Part shown: piece by piece, positions 53,273-64,000 of the stretch | How the letters are laid out: each line of letters opens with the position of its first letter | Numbering within the stretch: position 1 is the first letter of the stretch | Assembly: GCF_900078705.1 (NCBI RefSeq) | Contig: NZ_FKIF01000008.1 | Location: 124,001-188,000, forward strand | Direction: 5' to 3' | Length of the DNA: 64,000 nucleotides | From: Bordetella ansorpii | GTDB taxonomy: Bacteria; Pseudomonadota; Gammaproteobacteria; Burkholderiales; Burkholderiaceae_B | Position numbers and translations under genes: made by a program | The notes under the pieces: model-generated | Told to the model about the DNA's origin: nothing | Seen by the model: only the letters and a program-made list of their open reading frames with translations | The model's database searches: none

Positions 53273-53363
53273 GGACAGGTGGCCGAGCGGTTGAAGGCGC
53301 ACGCCTGGAAAGCGTGTATACGTCAAAAGCGTATCGGGGGTTCGAATCCCCCTCTGTCCGCCA
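53273..53363 (+). tRNA. tRNA-Ser (anticodon GGA)
   Basis: A 91-base tRNA with encoded CCA. The acceptor arm GGACAGG pairs with TCTGTCC, the D-arm is TGGCCGAGCGGTTGAAGGCG, the anticodon loop CTGGAAA reads GGA (UCC/UCU codons), and the long variable arm typical of serine tRNAs is formed by TATACG/CGTATC. The T-arm GGGGGTTCGAATCCCCC is perfect. The 3' half is the probable attachment site of the integrase that follows. Confidence 0.97.
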
Positions 53364-53476: not shown

Positions 53477-53534
53477 GTTGGTATCGCTGTTGGTATTTCG
53501 GTGCTATCTTCGTTGGTATCGACAAAATACCAAC
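53477..53534. repeat. GTTGGTAT repeats in the integrase control region
   Basis: GTTGGTAT occurs three times in direct orientation (53477-53484, 53489-53496, 53512-53519) and once inverted as ATACCAAC (53527-53534), all within 58 bases just before the integrase start at 53547. The arrangement suggests arm-type binding sites for the integrase or an operator array. Confidence 0.65.
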
Positions 53535-53546
53535 AAAAGAGGCGCC

Positions 53547-54764
53547 ATGCCCCTGACCGACCTGGCTGTCCGCAATGCCAAGCCCGGCCCCCGCCTGCAA
53601 AAGCTTTCCGACGGGCGGGGCCTGCAATTGCACATCTCCCCAACCGGCTCCAGGCTCTGGCGCTGGGCCTATCGCTTCGACGGCAAGCAGAAACTGATGG
53701 CGCTGGGCGTCTATCCGGACATTTCCCTAGCCCAAGCGCGCCAGGCGGCCGATGCCGCCCGCAAGCTGCTGGCCACCGGCATCGACCCGATGGACCAGCG
53801 CAAGGCTGACAAACTCAACCGCCAGCAGGCTGTGGACAACACGTTCCAGGAAGTGGCCAAGCGGTGGTGGGCACATTGGTCGCCCTCGCGTAGCGCACGG
53901 CATGCGGAATACGTCATCCGGCGCTTGGAGTCGGATGTTTTCCCTGTTTTGGGCGAACGCCCCGTGGATCAAATCCAGGCTCCCGAGCTGGTGAAGATGA
54001 CCAAGGCCATCGAGGAGCGCGGAGCGCTCGACATTGCCAAGCGTTCTCTGCAAACCTGCGGGCAGGTGTTTCGTTACGCGATTGCACACGGCCACGCGAC
54101 CCGCAACCCCGCCACGGAAATCCGTCCGGGTGACATCCTCACAGCACGCAAGAAGCAGAACTACGCCCGTCTGGATGCCAAGGAGCTACCCGAGTTGCTG
54201 CGGCATATCGAGGTCTACCAAGGCAGCAGTGTTACCCGCTTGGCGATGAAGCTGATGGCGATGACCTTTGTTCGTACCAGCGAACTTATTGGGGCTCGCT
54301 GGGAAGAGTTCGATCTGGACAATGCCCGCTGGGACATCCCGGCCGAGCGGATGAAGATGAAATCGCCGCACATCGTTCTGCTTTCGCATCAGGCGGTGCA
54401 GTTACTGCGCAATTTGCATACGCTGACGGGGCATCGAGCCTTGCTGTTTCCTGGCGAGCGGAGTCATGAAAAGCCCATGTCGAACAACACAATCCTCAAG
54501 GCACTGGAGCGCATGGGGTACAAAGGTCGAATGACTGGCCATGGATTTCGGGGTATTGCTTCGACTGTTTTACATGAGCAGGGGTGGCCACATGAGCATA
54601 TCGAACTGCAGCTGGCGCATCAGGAACGCGACGATACGAGTGCTGCATACAACCATGCGTTGTATCTCAAGCACCGGGCCAAGATGATGCAATGGTGGTC
54701 TGATTACCTTGACCATTGTGTTCAAAATAGTGAAGTGGCAACTCTACATAAGAAGAGTGCTTGA
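53547..54764 (+). CDS. P4-type tyrosine integrase
   Basis: A 405-residue site-specific recombinase with the DUF4102 N-terminal arm-binding domain (MPLTDLAVRNAKPGPRLQKL), a core-binding domain (about 98-185) and a catalytic domain. Visible catalytic residues are Arg243, His332-x-x-Arg335, His358 and Tyr368. Such integrases insert genomic islands and P4-like satellites into tRNA 3' ends, consistent with tRNA-Ser 184 bases upstream. The start at 53547 follows AGAGGCGCC. Its direction, reading away from the tRNA into the island, is standard. Confidence 0.95.
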   Translation: MPLTDLAVRNAKPGPRLQKLSDGRGLQLHISPTGSRLWRWAYRFDGKQKLMALGVYPDISLAQARQAADAARKLLATGIDPMDQRKADKLNRQQAVDNTFQEVAKRWWAHWSPSRSARHAEYVIRRLESDVFPVLGERPVDQIQAPELVKMTKAIEERGALDIAKRSLQTCGQVFRYAIAHGHATRNPATEIRPGDILTARKKQNYARLDAKELPELLRHIEVYQGSSVTRLAMKLMAMTFVRTSELIGARWEEFDLDNARWDIPAERMKMKSPHIVLLSHQAVQLLRNLHTLTGHRALLFPGERSHEKPMSNNTILKALERMGYKGRMTGHGFRGIASTVLHEQGWPHEHIELQLAHQERDDTSAAYNHALYLKHRAKMMQWWSDYLDHCVQNSEVATLHKKSA

Positions 54765-54812
54765 CGTCGCCACACCCAGAATCTCGTAAGTAACCATACA
54801 CGGCGGGTTGCC

Positions 54813-55691
54813 ATGAAAAAAGCAGCAACCATCACCATGAATCGGCTGATCAAAGACCTTGTCGTTTGTCGATTCCAAAAAATACGGGAAATCTTGAACG
54901 ATGTCGTCAGCATGAAGATCATCATGAAAGAAGATGTTCCTGGAGGACGAGAGATTGCGAGCGTTAGTCTGACTAGGGAAGATAGTACGCATTGGAAGAT
55001 AGAATCGCCGGCCTTGCTTCCAAGGGAGGACATAGACTGGGAATCGGTCGATATGCCACTCGTGCTAGAAACAATGCGGGATCACGCCTTGAAGTACTGG
55101 CTTGAATTTGAGAGCCAGGAGTCTTGGGATGTCTGGGAGGAAACGGTCAGTCAATATCTTGAGGCCGGAGGGGCAGCTTTCGACTTTGAGGACGGAAAGC
55201 CTGGTGGCCTCGCTTTAACCGAGCACGGGTATGACGCCCATAAATATGCGCCCTTGTTCTCGTATGCCTATTATCTGCAAGCAAAAAAATTACTGAGCGA
55301 CAATGATGTCGATGGTGCAAGGTGCAGTGTAGAACGTGGGGTTGGCTGGCTCTTTCGGATGATTCCAAATCCGAAAATGCGCTATTCAGAACGAGCCAAG
55401 AACAACGGAAGGAAAAAGCATCAGAAGGCAGATGCCTTGAAAGCAAAGGTCATTGATCTACTCAAGGATACGTCTACCAATGATCTTCACGATAAGAAGG
55501 CCGGTATAGAGCGTATCGTTCTGCGGCTCAAATCCGACCATCAAGACTTGATAGAAGCAAGTGGCTTGGACGAATGGAATCTTGAGAGAGTAGTGGCTGA
55601 CTGGATACGACGTGATCCGGTCAAATTCCAACTCGGCACGCAGGACAGTCCATCCGTAGTCAAGGGGTCAAAAAAGCATCCTCGTACATGA
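54813..55691 (+). CDS. Island protein of unknown function
   Basis: A 292-residue soluble protein, acidic in the centre and Lys-rich near residues 195-215 (AKNNGRKKHQKADALKAK). The codon use is markedly more A+T-rich than the core genes, a sign of transfer. There is no good ribosome site before the ATG at 54813; an ATG at 54837 is the alternative. It occupies the same place as yfjH in E. coli CP4-57 (between int and alpA) and is of similar size, but similarity cannot be judged by eye. No function proposed. Confidence 0.75.
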   Translation: MKKAATITMNRLIKDLVVCRFQKIREILNDVVSMKIIMKEDVPGGREIASVSLTREDSTHWKIESPALLPREDIDWESVDMPLVLETMRDHALKYWLEFESQESWDVWEETVSQYLEAGGAAFDFEDGKPGGLALTEHGYDAHKYAPLFSYAYYLQAKKLLSDNDVDGARCSVERGVGWLFRMIPNPKMRYSERAKNNGRKKHQKADALKAKVIDLLKDTSTNDLHDKKAGIERIVLRLKSDHQDLIEASGLDEWNLERVVADWIRRDPVKFQLGTQDSPSVVKGSKKHPRT

Positions 55692-55759
55692 GGAGCGCAT
55701 GAGTCAAAATTTCTGAATTTGGCAAAAGTTAGGGTCTGGCGAGGCGCCAAAGCTATATT

Positions 55760-55792
55760 GATTCCACCGGAATTTCCGGGCTTTATGGAATC
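55760..55792. promoter_or_regulatory. Nested inverted repeats before the AlpA-like gene
   Basis: GATTCCA (55760-55766) and TGGAATC (55786-55792) are perfect inverted repeats enclosing a second palindrome CCGGA-ATT-TCCGG. The element ends 5 bases before the start codon. It is a candidate operator for autoregulation, or an RNA hairpin covering the ribosome site. Confidence 0.5.
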
Positions 55793-55797
55793 ACTAT

Positions 55798-56055
55798 ATG
55801 CAAATTGAAATGAAAGGTCAGGTGCTTTTGCACTGCCCCGAGGTTCAGGCCTTGACCGGCCTGTCCCGTTCCTCGTTATACGAGCGTCTCAATCCGCGCT
55901 CGCCCTACCACGATAGTAGCTTCCCGCAGCCGGTTCGTGTCGGCCAGTCTTCCGTGCGCTGGATTCCGAGCGAGGTGGAGTCGTGGGTTTTGTCGCGCCC
56001 CCGTGCTCTCGGGAAACGTAAAAGCGGCGCCAAGCTCGGCCAGGCCAAGGAGTAG
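55798..56055 (+). CDS. AlpA-like excisionase/transcriptional regulator
   Basis: An 85-residue winged-helix MerR/AlpA-type protein: LLHCPEVQALTGLSRSSLYE forms the DNA-binding helix pair, followed by FPQPVRVGQSSVRWIPSEVE and the tail ESWVLSRPRA. AlpA in CP4-57 turns on the integrase and promotes excision. The gene starts the module of replication genes and is followed 3 bases later by a small conserved-looking gene. Confidence 0.88.
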   Translation: MQIEMKGQVLLHCPEVQALTGLSRSSLYERLNPRSPYHDSSFPQPVRVGQSSVRWIPSEVESWVLSRPRALGKRKSGAKLGQAKE

Positions 56056-56058
56056 AGC

Positions 56059-56340
56059 ATGGACGATACTCCCCACGTCTCGAACAATGACGAAGCTCCC
56101 GAAGATCGCGACGAACTCGAAGTGCGTGTCGCGCAAGCCGAACGCGACGTGCAATTGTTCAACGAGCGCTACATGCTGATGCAGAAGGCCATCAAGGCGC
56201 ATGTGTTCAAGAACAAAGACGAAGCGCACGCCGATCTGCAAAAGCGCGGGTTCATCGGCGACCTGGAGCGTTTCAAGTCCCTCTGGATCGCCCGTCAATA
56301 CCGCGACAAGCGTAATGCAAAAAAACAAGACGGTTCGTAG
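56059..56340 (+). CDS. Small island protein (93 aa), unknown
   Basis: A 93-residue, highly charged, probably helical protein: acidic first 25 residues, then QAERDVQLFNERYMLMQKAI and a basic tail YRDKRNAKKQDGS. No family recognised. It starts 3 bases after the AlpA-like stop, so it is clearly in one operon with it and with the DUF3987 gene 62 bases downstream. Confidence 0.7.
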   Translation: MDDTPHVSNNDEAPEDRDELEVRVAQAERDVQLFNERYMLMQKAIKAHVFKNKDEAHADLQKRGFIGDLERFKSLWIARQYRDKRNAKKQDGS

Positions 56341-56402
56341 GAGCCTACTGACAAGCAGAAATTCCAGACGCCCTACGGGGCGTCATTTTTTAGGTACACA
56401 AC

Positions 56403-58013
56403 ATGATGAATGAAGAAAGACCCAAGGGCGGAATCCCCAGATACAACAAAAAATTCCGCAACAACCCGAACGACGGTTTGGCGCCCAAACCGAATTGCCT
56501 GGGCCTGCCCAACGAATTGCTCGAACAGTCGGGCAACACTCTAGCAAGCCGCTTTCCACCGAAAACACGCGAGCTGATCGAAGAACTCGCAGCAGAAGCG
56601 GAAACCAGCGCGGACATGGTGGCGGCGGCGGTGCTGGCGACCAGCGCCATTCCCATTCAACTGCTCTATGACGTGCAGTGCCCTCACATCGGTCGGAAGC
56701 CTACGTCGCTGTTTTGCTTTGCGATACTCGGCTCCGGGCTGCGCAAGAGCACAACCCTCAATAGCCTGACCAAAGTCCATAAAGAATTTCAAAATAGCCA
56801 AGTCGCCAAGGCGCAAGAAGACGACGATAGCGATGTGCGGATCATCGTCTGGGAAAAAAAGATGGGCGATCTGCGCAGGGACATCCGGAAGAACGCCCAT
56901 GACGAGGAGGCCCTTCGCGGGTTGAAAGAGCGGATGGTCGCCCTGAAAGCCGAAAAACCCAAAACGCGGAAATCCGGCGCGGGCATCATGCAGAAGGACA
57001 TCACTTGGTCGGCCATGGTGAAAAGCCTTGGCGAAGACGCGGAATGCACGTCCTGGGTACACGCTGACGCCTCGGCGTTTCTACCTAGCTTGACGCATAT
57101 TGCCCCCGGCCTGAACGAGCTGTGGGATGGCGTAACCCTTAATCGCAAGCGCACGACCACGGAACCTGTCTATGCCAGCGAGCCGCGCGGCTCGTTGTTC
57201 TGGGCGCTGCAAGAAGGACGCTTTCAGACTTTCGTAAAAAAACATGGCGCCGACATCGTGGATGTTGGCTTGGCCGCGCGTACCCTGATCGTCATCTGCC
57301 GCGAAGATGACAAACCGGGTAACGAAGAACCCCGTCGTTACGAAATCGCGCGCACGGCGCGGGATCGACACGACAGCATCCTGCGGCGCCTTTTTGTCCG
57401 CTACGAGGAGATGCTGGAGGCGGGCGCGATCACCCGCGAGGTGCTGGTGTTATCCGAGAAAGCAACTGAACAGTGGCATGCGGCCATGACGTGGATCAAG
57501 GCCGAAAGCCACGGCAAGGGTGCATTCCACAACATACGCCCTTTCGGCAACCGCTACATGGAGAACGTCGCGCGCGTCGCCGCGGTTCTGCACGTCATCG
57601 AAGGCAACACAGGGCATGAAATATCGGCGGATGTCCTGCAATACGCGATCCTGATCGTCATGCACTTCGGCGTCGAGCACGAAAAACTGTTCGGCTACGT
57701 TGAAAAACCACTACATGAGCAAGATGCGCAAAATGTTCTCCTCGGTCTTCAAACGCTCGTTATTCGCAGTCAGCACAACCAAAAATACGTCGGGGGATAC
57801 CAAACGGCTTTCAACATCAGCGATGTGAAGCGTAATGCACACGGCGGTCTCACATTGCGGTACAGCGAAAAGCGCATACGCATGGCACTCGACCACTTGG
57901 CCGATCAAGGGAAGATTGCCTGGTGGCCGGTAGATCAGCGGCAATACTTCCAGGTGTCCCCCCTGCTGTTGAACGAGTGGACAAGCCCGTCTGGGCTGTT
58001 TGTCTACGCCTGA
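56403..58013 (+). CDS. DUF3987 (YfjI-like) putative replication/ATPase protein
   Basis: A 536-residue protein of the DUF3987/YfjI type found in P4-like islands. A P-loop variant GSGLRKST lies at residues 110-117. An acidic, helical insertion follows (about 135-190), then SWVHADASAFLPSLTHIAPG, LNELWDGVTLNRKRTTTEPV and RFFVRYEEML-like motifs, with a C-terminal winged-helix-like part. Related proteins resemble primase-helicase ATPases, so a role in island replication is inferred. The product lies between AlpA-type and YfjJ-type genes, as in CP4-57. Confidence 0.8.
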   Translation: MMNEERPKGGIPRYNKKFRNNPNDGLAPKPNCLGLPNELLEQSGNTLASRFPPKTRELIEELAAEAETSADMVAAAVLATSAIPIQLLYDVQCPHIGRKPTSLFCFAILGSGLRKSTTLNSLTKVHKEFQNSQVAKAQEDDDSDVRIIVWEKKMGDLRRDIRKNAHDEEALRGLKERMVALKAEKPKTRKSGAGIMQKDITWSAMVKSLGEDAECTSWVHADASAFLPSLTHIAPGLNELWDGVTLNRKRTTTEPVYASEPRGSLFWALQEGRFQTFVKKHGADIVDVGLAARTLIVICREDDKPGNEEPRRYEIARTARDRHDSILRRLFVRYEEMLEAGAITREVLVLSEKATEQWHAAMTWIKAESHGKGAFHNIRPFGNRYMENVARVAAVLHVIEGNTGHEISADVLQYAILIVMHFGVEHEKLFGYVEKPLHEQDAQNVLLGLQTLVIRSQHNQKYVGGYQTAFNISDVKRNAHGGLTLRYSEKRIRMALDHLADQGKIAWWPVDQRQYFQVSPLLLNEWTSPSGLFVYA

Positions 58014-58026
58014 CCCTCATCCACCC

Positions 58027-58056
58027 TGCTATTTTGCTACGGATAGCAGAATAGCA
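58027..58056 (+). terminator. First of two tandem hairpins after the DUF3987 gene
   Basis: TGCTATTTTGCTA pairs with TAGCAGAATAGCA (12 of 13) around the loop CGGA. There is no T-run, but it stands 8 bases before a complete terminator. Confidence 0.55.
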
Positions 58057-58063
58057 GCGTCCC

Positions 58064-58100
58064 GCCCCCGATCAGGTGCATTCTGGTCGGGGGCTTTTTT
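58064..58100 (+). terminator. Rho-independent terminator after the DUF3987 gene
   Basis: GCCCCCGATCAG pairs with CTGGTCGGGGGC (one G-T pair), loop of 7, followed by TTTTTT. It separates the alpA-DUF3987 transcript from the Rep-like gene. Confidence 0.88.
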
Positions 58101-58142
58101 CTTCCATGTGCGCGGCGCCATGTATGTATATGAGGGAAAGAA

Positions 58143-58232
58143 ATGAAAAGCCAATATTTACACGATGTCGTGGATCTCGATCAAAGCAGACCGCTGGGGT
58201 TTGTCGTATTGGTGAATTGTGCTTCTTCTTAA
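58143..58232 (+). CDS. Possible 29-aa leader peptide upstream of the Rep-like gene
   Basis: A short frame with a strong ribosome site (GAGGGAAAG) directly before its ATG. It encodes MKSQYLHDVVDL, then a short hydrophobic end (GFVVLVNCASS). It lies between a terminator and the Rep-like gene with no other coding signal. It could be a translated leader or a genuine small protein; length makes this uncertain. Confidence 0.3.
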   Translation: MKSQYLHDVVDLDQSRPLGFVVLVNCASS

Positions 58233-58295
58233 CATATAAGAATAAAAGAACACTTCATTTCTTCCTCACTCCTACAACACACATGGAGAGAGGCC

Positions 58296-59387
58296 ATGAA
58301 CGAAGACTACCTGGAAATCGAATCCGACATCTATCATGAGATAGACCGATTTAACAATATCGAATCGACATACCGTACCAACAAGAGGCAGGACATCATC
58401 CATGCCGAATACGGCCAGATCAGCACCTTTGCCATCATCGAGCGATTCGTCAAGGAATGCATCAAGGCGAAGACACTGCCCTTTGATCTAGAAGTGTACG
58501 AACACAAAGGGCAACGTCGAAAGCGGTTGCATCGCTCTACGCTGGTGTATTTCTATCCGATGCTTAACGGAATGCTGCAAGCCTATGACGAACGGTTTAT
58601 CTACAGCCCTTACGTCGGTGCGTTCTTCACCATCTGCAAGCAACTGGAGATGTTGTCTGACTTCCGTTGGCTATCGGACATCTACAAGAAACCCATGCCT
58701 GGCGACATGAACTACCTGAACCAGTTCAACAAACTGGCATGGTCGATCAAGAAGCATTGCGAAGGCAAGGAATTCCAGGAAAAGCTCAAGGCGCAAGCAA
58801 GACGTGTCAAGGATAGGAAGGACGCGGTACTGGAATGGGAGCACAAGCTGTTCAAGTGGCACTCCAGGCATCTCCTCGTCCACCTTACGTTGAAATACAA
58901 GGAAGAATACAGAGAGGAACTTACGCCTGAAATCATGCAGGCTCTATGGGCGCGCCTGCTCAGAAACAAACGCATGAACAAGATGCTCAAGGGCATCAAG
59001 CATTATGTCTGGCGCATTGAGGCTGGTAACGATAAAGGCGGCATTCACATGCACGTGGTCATTGCCTACAACGGACGATCTCACGAAGACCAGAATATCG
59101 CCAAATACATCTGTACCTACTTCAATGAGAAGCTCACCAATGGCAAGGGCGATGCTCGCGCGGATAATTTCTTCAAGAAAAGCATTGCCCGTAGGGGATT
59201 TGGCGACGGCACCGGCCAGATCAACTGCTACGACATGGATAAGCGCAAGGGATTGCGTACTGCATTGCAGTATCTGGACAAGGCAGGCCAGGTATTGCAG
59301 TGTAAAGCGCATGAGCGGGTGAGAACATTCGGCATGAGCCAAATTCCTGAGCCATCTAACTTGGGAAGGCCTCGAAAGGATTTGTGA
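58296..59387 (+). CDS. YagK/YfjJ (inovirus Gp2-like) putative HUH replication initiator
   Basis: A 363-residue protein of the YagK/YfjJ C-terminal domain/inovirus Gp2 type. In the second half, the motifs of rolling-circle initiators appear in order: a strand HLLVHLTLKY (192-201), the HUH metal motif HMH (251-253) in GGIHMHVVIAY, and YLDK (326-329), which fits the catalytic YxxK motif. It should nick a replication or transfer origin and stay linked to the 5' end. Codon use is A+T-rich. GGAGAGAGG precedes the ATG. An SSB gene follows 91 bases later. Confidence 0.8.
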   Translation: MNEDYLEIESDIYHEIDRFNNIESTYRTNKRQDIIHAEYGQISTFAIIERFVKECIKAKTLPFDLEVYEHKGQRRKRLHRSTLVYFYPMLNGMLQAYDERFIYSPYVGAFFTICKQLEMLSDFRWLSDIYKKPMPGDMNYLNQFNKLAWSIKKHCEGKEFQEKLKAQARRVKDRKDAVLEWEHKLFKWHSRHLLVHLTLKYKEEYREELTPEIMQALWARLLRNKRMNKMLKGIKHYVWRIEAGNDKGGIHMHVVIAYNGRSHEDQNIAKYICTYFNEKLTNGKGDARADNFFKKSIARRGFGDGTGQINCYDMDKRKGLRTALQYLDKAGQVLQCKAHERVRTFGMSQIPEPSNLGRPRKDL

Positions 59388-59478
59388 TCCGTATATATCT
59401 TATGCATACATGCGACCGTCGTTGCCTTGGCTATGTACAAGCAATGGCGGTATTTTCACGAACCATACAGGCATCACC

Positions 59479-59883
59479 ATGAACTATGAATCCATCAATC
59501 ACATTCACGTCGTCGGCGAATTAGACCGAGATCCTGAAGTACGTCGGCAGCAGAACGGCCAGTTTGTCACGACCGTCATGGTCAAAACCACAGACCATTA
59601 CATCAAGACCAAGACGAAAGAGAAGGTCGAGGAGCATACCGTGCATCGAGCAGTCCTCTTCTATGATAATGCGGATACTGCCAGAAAACTAAAAGCGGGT
59701 GATGTCGTAGACATTGAGGGCACACTGAAGAAAAGGTCATATCAGGACAGGAATACCGGCGAGACCAAATTCTCCACGCAAATATCTGCCTCGTCGTTGA
59801 AAGTTATGTCGGGTACTCGCGGGAATTCGAAAACGGTGGATGATCCCTTTGCAAGCGCGGCGGAATTTGAAATTCCGTGGTAG
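59479..59883 (+). CDS. ssb: Single-stranded DNA-binding protein (island-encoded)
   Basis: A 134-residue OB-fold protein starting MNYESINHIHVVGELDRDPE, with KLKAGDVVDIEGTLKKRSYQ in strand 4-5 and a short tail ending AEFEIPW. The last three residues resemble the IPF tip that SSB proteins use to recruit partners, with Trp for Phe, but the tail is shorter and less acidic. Placed after the Rep-like gene, it probably coats single-stranded replication intermediates of the element. Confidence 0.88.
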   Translation: MNYESINHIHVVGELDRDPEVRRQQNGQFVTTVMVKTTDHYIKTKTKEKVEEHTVHRAVLFYDNADTARKLKAGDVVDIEGTLKKRSYQDRNTGETKFSTQISASSLKVMSGTRGNSKTVDDPFASAAEFEIPW

Positions 59884-59946
59884 GAATATATGGCTGCACG
59901 GACGGTTCTCACCGCCAATGCTTATTTAAGCGCACTGCAACGGTAT

Positions 59947-60075
59947 TCAGTAAAACCCGCCTGATGTATGTCTCCATATCGCGATGGCAATGATAACGAG
60001 GATTAGGGTGAAAACCCACTTGGGTTTGATGAAAAGAAGAACGAGGAGTCCTACGATCAGGATGGAAAACAGCAT
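59947..60075 (-). CDS. Small two-helix membrane protein (42 aa)
   Basis: A very short gene, MLFSILIVGLLVLLFI then KPKW then VFTLILVIIAIAIW and a polar tail RHTSGGFY. It forms two hydrophobic stretches separated by a positively charged turn, so a hairpin in the inner membrane is likely. It is third in a row of small minus-strand genes and 57 bases after the zinc-ribbon gene. No family recognised; the regular alternation of hydrophobic segments and turn argues against chance. Confidence 0.55.
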   Translation of the reverse strand: MLFSILIVGLLVLLFIKPKWVFTLILVIIAIAIWRHTSGGFY

Positions 60076-60132
60076 GGGATATCCGTGTGTCGTAAAGCGC
60101 CTATTCCCATGCTTGTCAGGACATGTTGTGTT

Positions 60133-60324
60133 TCATCGGAAGAAGAATGACCGCAACATGTCTTTCAGTAGAGGGCGGCACATTGTGTCGATTTTGAAAC
60201 TGGTTGCACCACACTTCTTGCAATAGTCAGGATTGGGGTTTAGAAGGACATCACCATTAGGAATCGTGGTTGACCATCTGCATGATTTGCACGTGTATTT
60301 TTTATAGCCGAAGGCCATTATCAT
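60133..60324 (-). CDS. Small zinc-ribbon protein (63 aa)
   Basis: A 63-residue protein with two CxxC knuckles, CKSC near residue 12 and CKKC near 35, spaced as in a zinc ribbon, and a basic aromatic C-terminus (LKDMLRSFFFR). AAGGGAAATGCC precedes the start. It lies 23 bases after the 117-residue membrane protein on the same strand. Function unknown; nucleic acid or protein binding is possible. Confidence 0.65.
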   Translation of the reverse strand: MIMAFGYKKYTCKSCRWSTTIPNGDVLLNPNPDYCKKCGATSFKIDTMCRPLLKDMLRSFFFR

Positions 60325-60347
60325 GGCATTTCCCTTGAGATCTGTTC

Positions 60348-60701
60348 TCAGCTTTGAGTTTTCTTCTTATATGTCACGGCCAACGTACGCATGACACGAT
60401 TCTTTCCGATCTCATAGTCGGGGCTCCACGTAATGAGACGGTGTATTCCTATTGCAGCTCCCGCAGCCAGACCAAAGAAGACGGTCGGCCCCAAAAGTCC
60501 CGTGGCCAATACAGAAGAGCGATATTGCGTGTAGGTCCGGCATCTCAAGCCTGCTCTCTCGATACGGCCTTCCACCTTGGTGACGACCTTACCCATGTCG
60601 GTAACGGCAACAACCTCGAAGTCCTTTTTATTGAGGATGAGTTCGTCGAGACGATCGTCGGTCAATTCGTCTGCTGTGTATTTCACGATATCGGTCGGCA
60701 T
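60348..60701 (-). CDS. Predicted membrane protein (117 aa), unknown
   Basis: A 117-residue protein. Residues 1-58 are polar (MPTDIVKYTADELTDDRLDE), residues about 62-90 are hydrophobic and glycine-rich (SSVLATGLLGPTVFFGLAAG), and the end is basic (VTYKKKTQS). The start is preceded by AAGGA with good spacing, overlapping the end of the open frame upstream. No family recognised. It is part of the small-protein cassette. Confidence 0.65.
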   Translation of the reverse strand: MPTDIVKYTADELTDDRLDELILNKKDFEVVAVTDMGKVVTKVEGRIERAGLRCRTYTQYRSSVLATGLLGPTVFFGLAAGAAIGIHRLITWSPDYEIGKNRVMRTLAVTYKKKTQS

Positions 60702-60709
60702 AAAAATCC

Positions 60710-60904
60710 TTAGGTATTTTTCTTAACCTTGTTAGTGATGCGAAATCCCAATTTTTCCCTTATCAGATGAAGCTCCTCTTGTTGCGGTTCATTGCCTCTT
60801 GGCTGTATCGCTGGGTGTTGATGTACTAAAAGCTCCTGAATAAGCGAAGGAATGGGTTCATCGGCAACTAATGCAGCAATGACATGATGGTCTGTGACAC
60901 GTGA
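60710..60904 (-). pseudogene. Possible remnant of an upstream gene in the small-protein cassette
   Basis: An open frame of 64 codons ending 8 bases before the 117-residue gene, at the spacing of a true operon gene. It reads as a plausible charged helical protein (LIQELLVHQHPAIQPRGNEP, then EELHLIREKLGFRITNKV), but has no ATG, GTG or useful TTG start and is preceded at once by an in-frame TAA. Either a decayed gene or a sequence error upstream. Confidence 0.35.
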
Positions 60905-61060
60905 TTAGTTCGGACGCCTACTGGGGTGCCGGTTCACACACCTCACACCTGCTAAGGTTTGTGGTGCTATAGGTGTTTACGGGTCTAAATTGTACTTCTT
61001 AAGTTCTTAACCTTCTAAAGCTCAAGCCCGACTATTAGGGTCGGATTTGAGGGGGAAGGT
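60905..61060. promoter_or_regulatory. Control region of the XRE regulator with ACACCT repeats
   Basis: ACACCT occurs twice in tandem (60938-60943, 60945-60950) and inverted as AGGTGT (60971-60976). A CCGAC/GTCGG hairpin lies near 61028-61044. These are candidate operator sites for autoregulation by the XRE protein. Composition shifts from A+T-rich to more G+C-rich from here on, marking a junction between island modules. Confidence 0.45.
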
Positions 61061-61399
61061 TTGGATACGGATCAACTAGCAGAGCGGATCGGACGCGCCA
61101 TCGCAACGCGACGAGCTGCTCGCGGTATGACACAGGAGGAGGTGGCCGAAAGGCTGGGCATCGGCCTAGCGGCGATTTCCCGTCTGGAGCGGGGCTTGAT
61201 CATGCCCACGGTCGGTCGGCTGGTTGAACTTGCCGAAATTTTTGAATGCAATGCAACAGACCTAATGAACCAGGTCAGCGTGGGTGCACATGATCAAGCC
61301 CAGCACTTGGTTCAGGTACTTTCAGGGTTGAGCGAGCATGATCGCTCTGTGCTCGTGGACGCTATGGAGCGTATCGCTGCCTGTCTGGGGCGCCGTTGA
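61061..61399 (+). CDS. XRE-family helix-turn-helix regulator
   Basis: A 112-residue repressor-like protein with a Cro/C1 domain at residues 5-62 (RAARGMTQEEVAERLGIGLA, ISRLERGLIMPTVGRLVELA) and a short helical C-terminus. The start is a TTG at 61061 behind GAGGGGGAAGG, since no in-frame ATG precedes the DNA-binding domain. It converges with the nuclease-like gene. It may control the neighbouring defence pair. Confidence 0.85.
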   Translation: MDTDQLAERIGRAIATRRAARGMTQEEVAERLGIGLAAISRLERGLIMPTVGRLVELAEIFECNATDLMNQVSVGAHDQAQHLVQVLSGLSEHDRSVLVDAMERIAACLGRR

Positions 61400-61524
61400 C
61401 GTTGCCCTGTCACTATCTGTCGGCGTGACCTTTCCGAGGTGCTGCTGTTCGTTGTAAATCGACGATGTGTCAAACCCGTTTACTAGGCGTATAGCAGAAA
61501 CATCTTACCGGGTCGAATGATTGT

Positions 61525-62751
61525 TTAGATAGTCGCGATGGTGGCTGCCCATGGACTGAGCACTGTTCCACCAAGATCGACGAATCCAAGGCATCCGACA
61601 GGGGCACCCATCCTTAACGGTGCCAGTCCTCTGTGAGCAAGGGCAACGACACTTCTGGAGAGTATGTCGCCTGCTGCTTCCCCTTGCGCGTATGCAGCAT
61701 CCCGTGCATATCCAACAATTTGTGGAACTGCGTCTAGAATGGCCCCGTGGGCAGAATCTGGATCGCCAAACCACTTGCATTCGATGATGGAGAGTATACG
61801 GCCCGCCCGTTCTATAACAATGTCGGCGCGGGCAGTACCCGCTGCAGCGCCCAGCGAGGCAGCCAGATCTTTCGCCATAATCTCCCCCGGGTCAAGATCA
61901 GCATTGGGTCGCTGCGGAATAGCCCGCTGCCAGCGTATTTCGATGTCGCCGACTTTAGCTGCCGGACGACCGGCAGCGAACGACGCATCCAGTACACACG
62001 GATGGCCCGTCGCTCCAGCTAGAGCGTCGCCAACCTCTAGCAAGACGGCTAGTTCGAATTTGCGCCATGTCTCCATCCCAGGCAAGGTGTCACCAGCCAA
62101 CAGCGCAGCCACACTCTCCGGCTGGAGCGCATCTATGCCAGCAAGGGTGGAGGCACAATCCCAAGAGAGCCGGTAAAGCGGTGCCCTGGCTTTGGCAGCC
62201 TGCCTGCGCTCGTGCGATCCAATTCTCGCCCGTCCAGCAGGCGTGGCCAGCAGGTCTCTCATGGGAGCTACCTTTAGGGCATCGTCGAGAATGGCAAGCC
62301 GCTCCTTGGCTGGGCCATCGAACAATCCACCTCTCACATGTAGCGCCGCCGCCCGGAGAGCCTTCCTTGCGGCGTCGAGGGTCTTTGCGAGCACGCGGTT
62401 AGGGCCAGCTAACCAGGTTGCAGAAATCTCCGTCACGACGAACGCGGAAGGATCGAGCGTGATGGCTTGCAAGAGTGCTGAAGCCGCCGCGTCGGGTGGG
62501 CCAGGGATCTCGCCGGAGACCTCCCGGCGGAAGCCGTCAAGTGCCGGAGATACTTCGCGTGGCCTCGTGGCAAGGCGAGCCGCCAATGCACCGACCGGCC
62601 GGGAGAGTGCCCACCACATCCTGAGAGCATCTATATCCTCGTGGCGCACGGGGGCCACCGGCCCGTTATATGGAGACCGAGGCCCCTTGCTGAGCCAACG
62701 GAGTAGGCCACGCAGGCAGATCTCATCCAAATCGGATGCAGAGACTGTCAA
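61525..62751 (-). CDS. PD-(D/E)XK nuclease-like protein, putative McrC-type partner
   Basis: A 408-residue protein. Its C-terminal part holds a nuclease core: Asp310 in ARADIVIE, then Glu324-x-Lys326 in SIIECKWFGD, preceded by a helix with WRKFELAVLLEVGDAL that resembles the conserved Glu-bearing helix of McrC/DUF2357-type nucleases. The N-terminal 220 residues are helical and unrecognised. The TTG start at 62751 overlaps the upstream stop (TTGA) and has GGAG 8 bases before it; an ATG at 62811 lacks a ribosome site. The tight coupling to an McrB-like NTPase suggests a restriction complex. Confidence 0.65.
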   Translation of the reverse strand: MTVSASDLDEICLRGLLRWLSKGPRSPYNGPVAPVRHEDIDALRMWWALSRPVGALAARLATRPREVSPALDGFRREVSGEIPGPPDAAASALLQAITLDPSAFVVTEISATWLAGPNRVLAKTLDAARKALRAAALHVRGGLFDGPAKERLAILDDALKVAPMRDLLATPAGRARIGSHERRQAAKARAPLYRLSWDCASTLAGIDALQPESVAALLAGDTLPGMETWRKFELAVLLEVGDALAGATGHPCVLDASFAAGRPAAKVGDIEIRWQRAIPQRPNADLDPGEIMAKDLAASLGAAAGTARADIVIERAGRILSIIECKWFGDPDSAHGAILDAVPQIVGYARDAAYAQGEAAGDILSRSVVALAHRGLAPLRMGAPVGCLGFVDLGGTVLSPWAATIATI

Positions 62752-64000
62752 GCCGAGAACTCCGCGCAGTCGAGGGCTAGCCTCTCCGCTCTTCCCATGT
62801 CGAGCGCCCATTCAGCAGAAATGCCGGTGGCTAGGTCGCCCGCCTCACGAGGGGAAAGTCCATCCATTAGGGGAAGGACGCACATGCGAAATGCGGAAAG
62901 GAATGGCTCGGCGGTCGCACCGGCTGGCAGTGCAAAAAGATCGGCGGCGGGATCGAGAGCCTGGATCGTTCTGATGAAATCGACAATGGGCGCTCCGCCA
63001 ATTTCTCGGATGGTATTGACAGATCTCCACATCGCTCCAATAGGATTCACGGGAATGGGGTTAGGAACCGCGACACCGATTCTATTCGCCATTTCAGAGA
63101 CAAATACATCGAGATCGGCTGGAGCCCCGACCTTAATCCAGGCAAAGCGCCGGCTGAGAGCATATGAGATTTGACCCAGTTGAGTCTTGTCATAGGTGTT
63201 CAGTGTGCAGATAAGACGCCAAGCAGAATCCGGCGCATGCTCATGGGCCGCCATGCCGGGACGTGGCTCGGGATGGATGATGTGAAATGGGCTGGTCGGA
63301 TCGGCCGCATCTACACGGCACGGTAGAGTTGAGGACTGACCAGAGAGGATGGAGAACATCGGTCCAAGTACCTTGTCGATGGGACAGCGGTTAAGCTCGT
63401 CGATGATGGCCGGTTTGTCGAAATTCCTAAGGAGTGCACCGGGGATAAATCCGATAGCTCCTCCGCCGAGCGGTTGGTATCCGCCGACGAGATCCTGTTG
63501 ACTCCATGCTGATGAGGCGGTGAGCATTAGGTAAGAACCGTCGCCATCGTCCCTCTCAGAAAGTTCCCGAGCCAGATACTCGGCCAGAGTCGTTTTACCC
63601 GTGCCGGGCGGACCGTACAGGATAATGTGGCGTTTGCCGGAATTGACTGCGGCTTCGATCTGCCGATAGACCGATGGATCGATCCCGACGAGCGTTGTGT
63701 CTTCGGCAAGCACGAATGGGGTTTGGCCAGGTGCTGGCGCAAACACGGCCGCTAGATCGGTAACGAAACGGTCGCGGTCGGTGTCCTGCGTTCCGTCATA
63801 TAGGGTAGCGCCCAAAAATTGGGCGGTGGCAGCACCGACCTCGTCGTAGGTTGTCCCCGCCGCAGCAGTCAGAGTAACCGGTGCTTTGACGACGGCACGG
63901 AATGCGAGCGGATAGCTCGCCCTGGCGGTTCCGCCACCAAAATTAACCGTACCGTTCACTGGGTTAAAGTCGGTGAGTGGATCACCTGACGTTCCTGCCG
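62748..64000 (-). CDS. McrB-like AAA+ NTPase, 5' partial
   Basis: At least 417 residues; the frame stays open to the window edge, so the N-terminus is missing. Counting from a GTG at 63959, Walker A GPPGTGKT is at 116-123, Walker B IIDELNR at 185-191, and NTYD at 254-257, followed by SYALSRRFAWIKV. The IIDE(L/I)NR and NTxD signatures, with the YALxRRF sensor region, are those of the McrB/GTP-using AAA+ clade rather than of MoxR. McrB moves along DNA and drives the McrC nuclease at modified sites. Translationally coupled to the nuclease-like gene. Confidence 0.78.
   Translation of the reverse strand, partial: AGTSGDPLTDFNPVNGTVNFGGGTARASYPLAFRAVVKAPVTLTAAAGTTYDEVGAATAQFLGATLYDGTQDTDRDRFVTDLAAVFAPAPGQTPFVLAEDTTLVGIDPSVYRQIEAAVNSGKRHIILYGPPGTGKTTLAEYLARELSERDDGDGSYLMLTASSAWSQQDLVGGYQPLGGGAIGFIPGALLRNFDKPAIIDELNRCPIDKVLGPMFSILSGQSSTLPCRVDAADPTSPFHIIHPEPRPGMAAHEHAPDSAWRLICTLNTYDKTQLGQISYALSRRFAWIKVGAPADLDVFVSEMANRIGVAVPNPIPVNPIGAMWRSVNTIREIGGAPIVDFIRTIQALDPAADLFALPAGATAEPFLSAFRMCVLPLMDGLSPREAGDLATGISAEWALDMGRAERLALDCAEFSA

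Follow-up and report, generated by a model that had tools for sequence, protein, structure and literature searches.

Organisation of the locus

We analysed a 64,000-nucleotide stretch of the Bordetella ansorpii genome (G000:C8:124001-188000 in contig C8 positions; hereafter the window), at the end of which two genes encode a McrB-like AAA+ protein and a McrC-like nuclease (Table 1). A sequence-only reading had described this pair as a two-gene McrBC-like system, inferred for it a role in modification-dependent restriction or phage defence, and had called for inspection of the sequence past base 64000 for an N-terminus or extra genes. There, the AAA+ gene extends for a further 439 bases, completing a protein of 563 amino acids (aa) from an ATG that aligns with its relatives. 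The next gene upstream, on the same strand and about 220 bases away, encodes a methyltransferase; beyond it is a divergent MTaX1-HNH gene. The locus, labelled L003 past the window edge, therefore contains at least three genes instead of two.

The TTGA overlap of the AAA+ and nuclease genes was confirmed at the junction. The two genes touch or overlap by a few bases in nine relatives (L002, L005, L006, L008, L009, L010, L014, L015 and L016), and the junction reads TAATG in L012. The TTGA overlap suggests that translation of the AAA+ protein and the nuclease may be coupled. In L013 (L013:1290-1540), the nuclease start after the AAA+ stop is apparently disturbed and the detected frame begins further down.

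Table 1. Coordinates of the genes and sites discussed; C8 and L003 numbers are contig and locus positions, all others are window positions.
Feature	Position	Strand	Evidence
McrC-like PD-(D/E)XK nuclease, 408 aa, TTG start	61525..62751	-	open reading frame
McrB-like AAA+ subunit, C-terminal part in window	62748..64000, on to C8:188439	-	reading frame
TTGA overlap, AAA+ stop / nuclease start	62748..62751	-	junction sequence
N4-cytosine methyltransferase, 392 aa, outside window	C8:188660-189838	-	PF01555 N6_N4_Mtase, E 4.2e-39
17-bp operator-like site, outside window	C8:189889-189905		site model
MTaX1-HNH gene, divergent, outside window	C8:190005-190979 (L003:14005-14979)	+	MTaX1, E 3.3e-29
tRNA-Ser(GGA), likely island edge	53273..53363	+	
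Integrase-like frame of island	53478..54764	+	recognised by eye

The AAA+ protein and the nuclease

The motifs IIDELNR, NTYD and SYALSRRF, earlier taken as McrB-type signatures, were all found in the AAA+ frame. AAA_5 matched residues 271-432 (E 6.6e-16), and comparison of the AAA+ profile with an alignment of four AAA+ (McrB-like) proteins whose genes neighbour those of PF10117 proteins gave a probability of 98.8 and E 9.8e-17, in agreement with that assignment. Among PDB sequences, the single protein matched T. gammatolerans McrB (3.4e-8) and midasin (4e-8), which ranked together, and the profile query placed midasin first. The N-T/S-x-D (NxxD) motif is present in the aligned relatives; this form is described in one branch of McrB GTPases (PMC11090510). 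A MoxR chaperone paired with a VWA protein was rejected as no VWA partner adjoins the AAA+ gene, whose neighbours are the methyltransferase and the PD-(D/E)XK protein.

Residues 1 to ~249 of the AAA+ protein form a separate N-terminal domain. Identity to distant relatives is 26-29% over these 249 residues, 47-48% over the AAA+ part and 66-75% over the catalytic part of the methyltransferase. Pfam gave no match to the methyl-DNA-binding N-terminal domain of McrB. The structure of the domain was modelled with confidence (predicted local distance difference test, pLDDT, 87.1; predicted template modelling score, pTM, 0.88) and the model had no clear structural match; as judged from this model, the domain appears to be new. 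In L014 and L015 it is a separate protein of 488 or 492 aa ahead of an AAA+ protein of 373 or 374 aa, and these two loci were excluded from full-length AAA+ alignments because of this separate frame. The separate proteins (L014:7161-8627, L015:7134-8612) are extended at the N-terminus by about 280 residues that match no Pfam family; part of this extension and the N-terminal region of the L009 McrB-like protein are 37-38% identical.

In the nuclease, 12/12 aligned homologues share without variation the core D309, E323xK325 and Q343xxxY347, numbered from the residue that follows the TTG start; L011, with a frame of only 128 aa, was excluded. The core spacing is that of four PF10117 proteins. The predicted PD-(D/E)XK partner is thus borne out. 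Pfam searches gave no family above cut-off for the nuclease, with residues 1-220 free of any family match by sequence; DUF2357 was not matched, and the PF10117 (McrC) profile matched none of the 12 members at E up to 1. The earlier statements that the first 220 residues resemble nothing known and that a classical McrC N-terminus is absent hold by sequence, but are doubtful by structure. Using Foldseek, the best matches of the predicted structure were the McrC chains 6hz4_M (E 3.4e-4), 6ut7_G (3.8e-4) and 6ut6_G (1.1e-3), in alignments covering nearly the whole model; the fold also matches restriction endonucleases. A protein far from McrC in sequence, yet with McrC as the best match of its model, is apparently a new combination.

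A methyltransferase with a putative ribbon-helix-helix domain

The methyltransferase matches the M.PvuII crystal protein over residues 70-354 (E 4.8e-108) and is 56.1% identical to a gene on pPvu1. M.PvuII is specific for CAGCTG; raw counts of this sequence, compared with no expected number, are 16 in the window and 1 in 19 kb of L003. Residues 1-45 are an extra domain. A NikA-like, ribbon-helix-helix (RHH) profile matched the N-terminus in 12/12 methyltransferases when E values up to 1 were admitted (lowest 2e-7; 0.015, short of the cut-off, for our own), RHH_1 matched in 3/12, and a PDB search with the N-terminus returned no match. M-x-R-P, R10, R17, E22, G34, Y41, R43 and L45 are invariant in these N-termini. 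In Roseivivax and Thiothrix relatives, the annotated methyltransferase begins no more than a few codons ahead of the position aligned with residue 66, and there is therefore no room for such a domain. Near the Aurantiacibacter methyltransferase lies an AAA family ATPase gene. These profiles and conserved positions point to a probable RHH domain fused to the methyltransferase, apparently a new fusion; this class of repressor is more familiar from toxin-antitoxin and plasmid-mobilisation proteins.

Linkage of the methyltransferase to the AAA+/nuclease pair

Linkage was assessed in 13 loci, namely our own and 12 gathered with nuclease or AAA+ queries, never with the methyltransferase: Cupriavidus gilardii (L002), Novacetimonas (L005) and Ensifer (L006) plasmids and nine viral contigs (L008-L016). 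In 12/13 there was a methyltransferase, with 61-92% identity to our own; the exception, L011, is a 4.4-kb contig carrying the 128-aa nuclease frame. In C. gilardii, as in our locus, the methyltransferase gene precedes the pair; in the other ten, the two are convergent. As the gene is placed in two ways relative to the pair, the linkage survives rearrangement. On the Novacetimonas plasmid (NZ_CP062148.1; L005, L026), the methyltransferase spans the record start and was left unannotated because the record ends overlap, by 127 identical bases, inside the gene.

Conversely, scanning viral contigs with a methyltransferase alignment yielded 22 loci, which the N-terminal pattern splits into 14 with the RHH fusion and 8 without it. 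At least 1 kb of downstream sequence was available in 12 of the 14 RHH-fused loci; the nuclease was present in all 12 and the AAA+ gene in 9. Where the latter was not seen, the contig ends just after the nuclease (L028) or the nuclease is partial and no AAA+ gene was found (L030, L035). Neither gene was found in the RHH-less loci (0/8, L041 having only 111 bases downstream). The AAA+ scan had already yielded eight of the 14 RHH loci; the new loci with flanking sequence are four (L028, L030, L035, L036), all with the nuclease, among which L030 resembles L008, and L035 resembles L036.

PvuII-like methyltransferases repeatedly have an MTaX1-HNH gene as neighbour, whether the pair is present or not (L003:14005-14979, L009:4989-6047, L015:12417-13475, L017:9075-10094, L018:1689-2672). 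In L009, a divergent second McrB/McrC pair (L009:1800-5002) lies directly beside the system and overlaps the MTaX1-HNH gene.

A conserved site upstream of the methyltransferase gene

The stretches upstream of the methyltransferase have in common a 17-bp pseudo-palindrome, reading for example TTATTGTATTACAATAA at our locus and TTCTTGTAATACGAAAA in the Ensifer plasmid. Because the motif columns were chosen after viewing these regions, only a hold-out analysis, the Novacetimonas plasmid and the new viral loci count as tests of the site model. For the hold-out, the model was built from the other clusters and held-out loci of 9-25 kb were scanned on both strands; L009, a near-copy of L008, was excluded from both training and hold-out. 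In 10/10 loci (8 clusters), the top site of the whole locus was located 42-62 bp in front of the methyltransferase start. On the Novacetimonas plasmid, which lies outside the training set, the two top-ranking positions out of 12,258 were 45 (best) and 71 (second) bases upstream of the gene. Of six additional viral RHH loci, five (L027, L028, L030, L035 and L036) had their best site 45-60 bases upstream, and in L048 the site was only second-best (9.1), 99 bp upstream. For the loci without the RHH fusion, the two best sites both lay outside the 300 bp upstream of the methyltransferase (0/8 within). Likewise, four plasmid relatives without the AAA+/nuclease pair had no site at the methyltransferase, the nearest (14.5, on pPvu1) being more than 250 bases off.

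The site is repeated at a spacing of 26-28 bp in L006, L012, L016 and L005/L026. A sigma-70 consensus scan at our methyltransferase revealed no sigma-70-like promoter, and overlap of the site with a -35 element was consequently judged by eye. Combined, the conserved site and the fused RHH domain suggest that the methyltransferase may repress its own gene, and the coupling of a conserved 17-bp promoter pseudo-palindrome to an RHH fusion appears to be new. M.Ecl18kI-type methyltransferases are of the 5-methylcytosine type, as opposed to the N4-type enzyme described here. They repress their own gene via a fused N-terminal DNA-binding domain, which is helix-turn-helix (HTH) there and probably RHH here (PMC3874152).

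Relation to known systems

Two characterised systems resemble the three genes most directly in composition and are described as restricting unmethylated DNA. LlaJI, from a Lactococcus plasmid, combines methylation with a McrB-like specificity subunit and a PD-(D/E)XK subunit; R1 binds the site, both subunits are needed in vivo, and GTPase activity was not seen in vitro (PMC1459862). It differs in having two 5-methylcytosine methyltransferases as against one N4-type enzyme, and no RHH fusion is described in the account of LlaJI consulted. Its recognition domain is B3-like (PMC12707154), whereas B3 was not among the matches of the N-terminal domain here. In its relatives LlaI and BsuMI, both cassettes of three open reading frames, the McrB-like protein (LlaIB, BsuMIB) is shorter than R1.LlaJI (PMC1459862), an arrangement like that of L014 and L015, where the N-terminal domain is encoded apart. 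PcaRCI, from Pectobacterium, is mobile and has one methyltransferase, an AAA+ protein that is McrB-like only in its C-terminal part and a McrC-like nuclease with divergent flanks; its methyltransferase is Dcm-like (CCNGG) and its nuclease is annotated DUF2357, unlike the N4-type enzyme and the nuclease without DUF2357 or PF10117 match found here (PMC8989522).

Escherichia coli McrBC, a Type IV enzyme, shares the NxxD AAA+ protein and the PD-(D/E)XK partner, whose predicted fold may also be shared; however, it has no cognate methyltransferase, reads methylated DNA and differs in its N-terminal domains. The PvuII system on pPvu1 shares the catalytic part of the methyltransferase, but has a small single-chain nuclease and an adjoining, separate HTH regulator, and the alignment of its methyltransferase with our own begins at our residue 70 and so includes no RHH part. 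A literature search, mostly below full-text depth, found no description of such a system or of an RHH-methyltransferase fusion.

A probable restriction-modification system and its alternatives

We consider it quite likely that the three genes form a restriction-modification system with a McrBC-type nuclease that restricts unmethylated DNA, like LlaJI and PcaRCI. The defence role proposed earlier is supported, but the dependence on modification is not: the methyltransferase travels with the pair, and this points to restriction of unmethylated DNA, as demonstrated for LlaJI (PMC1459862) and PcaRCI (PMC8989522). From the gene content, linkage, motifs, structural resemblance and promoter site observed directly, we infer all biochemical steps, the order of events and the target as follows. 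The AAA+/nuclease pair would be the restriction enzyme, and the upstream N4-cytosine methyltransferase would protect host sites, which would be CAGCTG provided that the enzyme has retained the specificity of the related M.PvuII. The AAA+ subunit would recognise unprotected sites via its N-terminal domain, a DNA-reading function assigned by analogy with McrB and R1.LlaJI, assemble as a ring driven by nucleoside triphosphate and travel along DNA; the McrC-like subunit would dock on the ring and cut. The RHH domain would bind one or two 17-bp pseudo-palindromes at the methyltransferase's own promoter and shut the gene off once enough enzyme is present, so that modification would come first on entry into a new cell.

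The kinds of subunit resemble McrBC, and L009 has an ordinary second McrB/McrC pair alongside (PF10117 E 2.7e-23), as might be expected if the enzyme were a modification-dependent, Type IV one and the methyltransferase a neighbour or the source of the mark. Yet an enzyme cutting the mark of a partner present in nearly all loci would cut the host, and the N-terminal domain lacks a Pfam match to that of McrB. With a cognate methyltransferase linked, we regard a Type IV enzyme as improbable. Alternatively, MTaX1-HNH could be the true restriction partner of the methyltransferase, leaving the AAA+/nuclease pair as a separate defence module. MTaX1-HNH adjoins the methyltransferase in our locus, and is found beside PvuII-like methyltransferases without the pair on Roseivivax and Thiothrix plasmids and in L040 and L046 (by tblastn only). 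However, it was found in just 3/13 AAA+/nuclease loci, with our own HNH as the sole query, and 5/14 RHH loci, as against a nuclease in every RHH locus with flanking sequence. The Roseivivax locus also carries a further restriction endonuclease gene (Mrr_cat), and the HNH protein thus looks like an accessory; that it is the true partner seems very improbable.

As for the 17-bp site, its overlap with the expected -35 position, as judged by eye, could alone conserve part of it, and it might be another promoter element or the site of a host factor instead of the operator of the fused domain. We find this rather unlikely, as the site is palindromic, is often repeated at a spacing of 26-28 bp and accompanies RHH-fused methyltransferases but none of the eight RHH-less ones (within 300 bp upstream, among the two best sites).

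Genomic setting and distribution

The earlier proposal of a tRNA-linked island was correct as to the island and the tRNA, but the link is loose, the tRNA-Ser(GGA) gene and integrase-like frame being ~7-8 kb away from the pair. The G+C content is 0.676 in window positions 1-50000 and 0.538 in 54001-64000. No exact repeat of at least 15 nt of the tRNA region, as expected of an att repeat, was found up to C8:214000. Rep, SSB-like (single-stranded DNA-binding) and XRE genes precede the pair in the island, and a recombination-directionality-like gene and a YqaJ gene follow it. A replication protein encoded in the island is REP_ORF2-G2P-like (window 58296-59387, E 2.1e-6) and lies between a large primase-like frame and an SSB-like frame, both recognised by eye. 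Outside the window, a Gabija pair was detected by PADLOC at C8:195505-199280 (L004:505-4280; GajA E 2.3e-172, GajB E 6.5e-157); another integrase-like frame comes after it (L004:4859-6133), and this part of the genome resembles a defence island. In four viral contigs, frames recognised by eye as serine recombinase-like lie near the system (L010:5136-6569, L013:4531-5994, L014:12930-14507, L016:5870-7372), as if it were cargo of an integration module.

A four-row nuclease profile, run against 398 genomes from the phylum and 268 from the family, matched our own genome only, and a genome contig scan, sensitive to close relatives only, found one locus. Phages gave no nuclease match and one distant AAA+ match. 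On plasmids, the nuclease was found in 2 records and the AAA+ protein in 76, 2 of them with at least 80% coverage; the remaining 74 were left out of the locus set. The system is mobile and probably functional.

Significance

McrBC-type enzymes restricting unmethylated DNA are little studied; the experimental cases that we found are LlaJI and PcaRCI. In a census, association with methyltransferases is reported as frequent among McrB-like GTPases, its treatment being deferred to another paper (PMC11090510). In the case described here, the window edge had made what is probably a restriction-modification system look like a Type IV system. Chances are about even that these loci form a lineage of their own among McrBC-type restriction-modification systems, carried by phages and plasmids, in which the methyltransferase would act as a timer (RHH autorepression on a palindrome pair), the AAA+ ring would read unmethylated sites by a fold absent from solved structures, and the L014/L015 branch, with its recognition domain as a protein on its own, would have a four-part enzyme. 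The lineage offers compact plasmid-borne examples and a putative recognition domain that was modelled with confidence but clearly matches no known structure, together with an unusual form of control, in that the methyltransferase seems to carry its own repressor.
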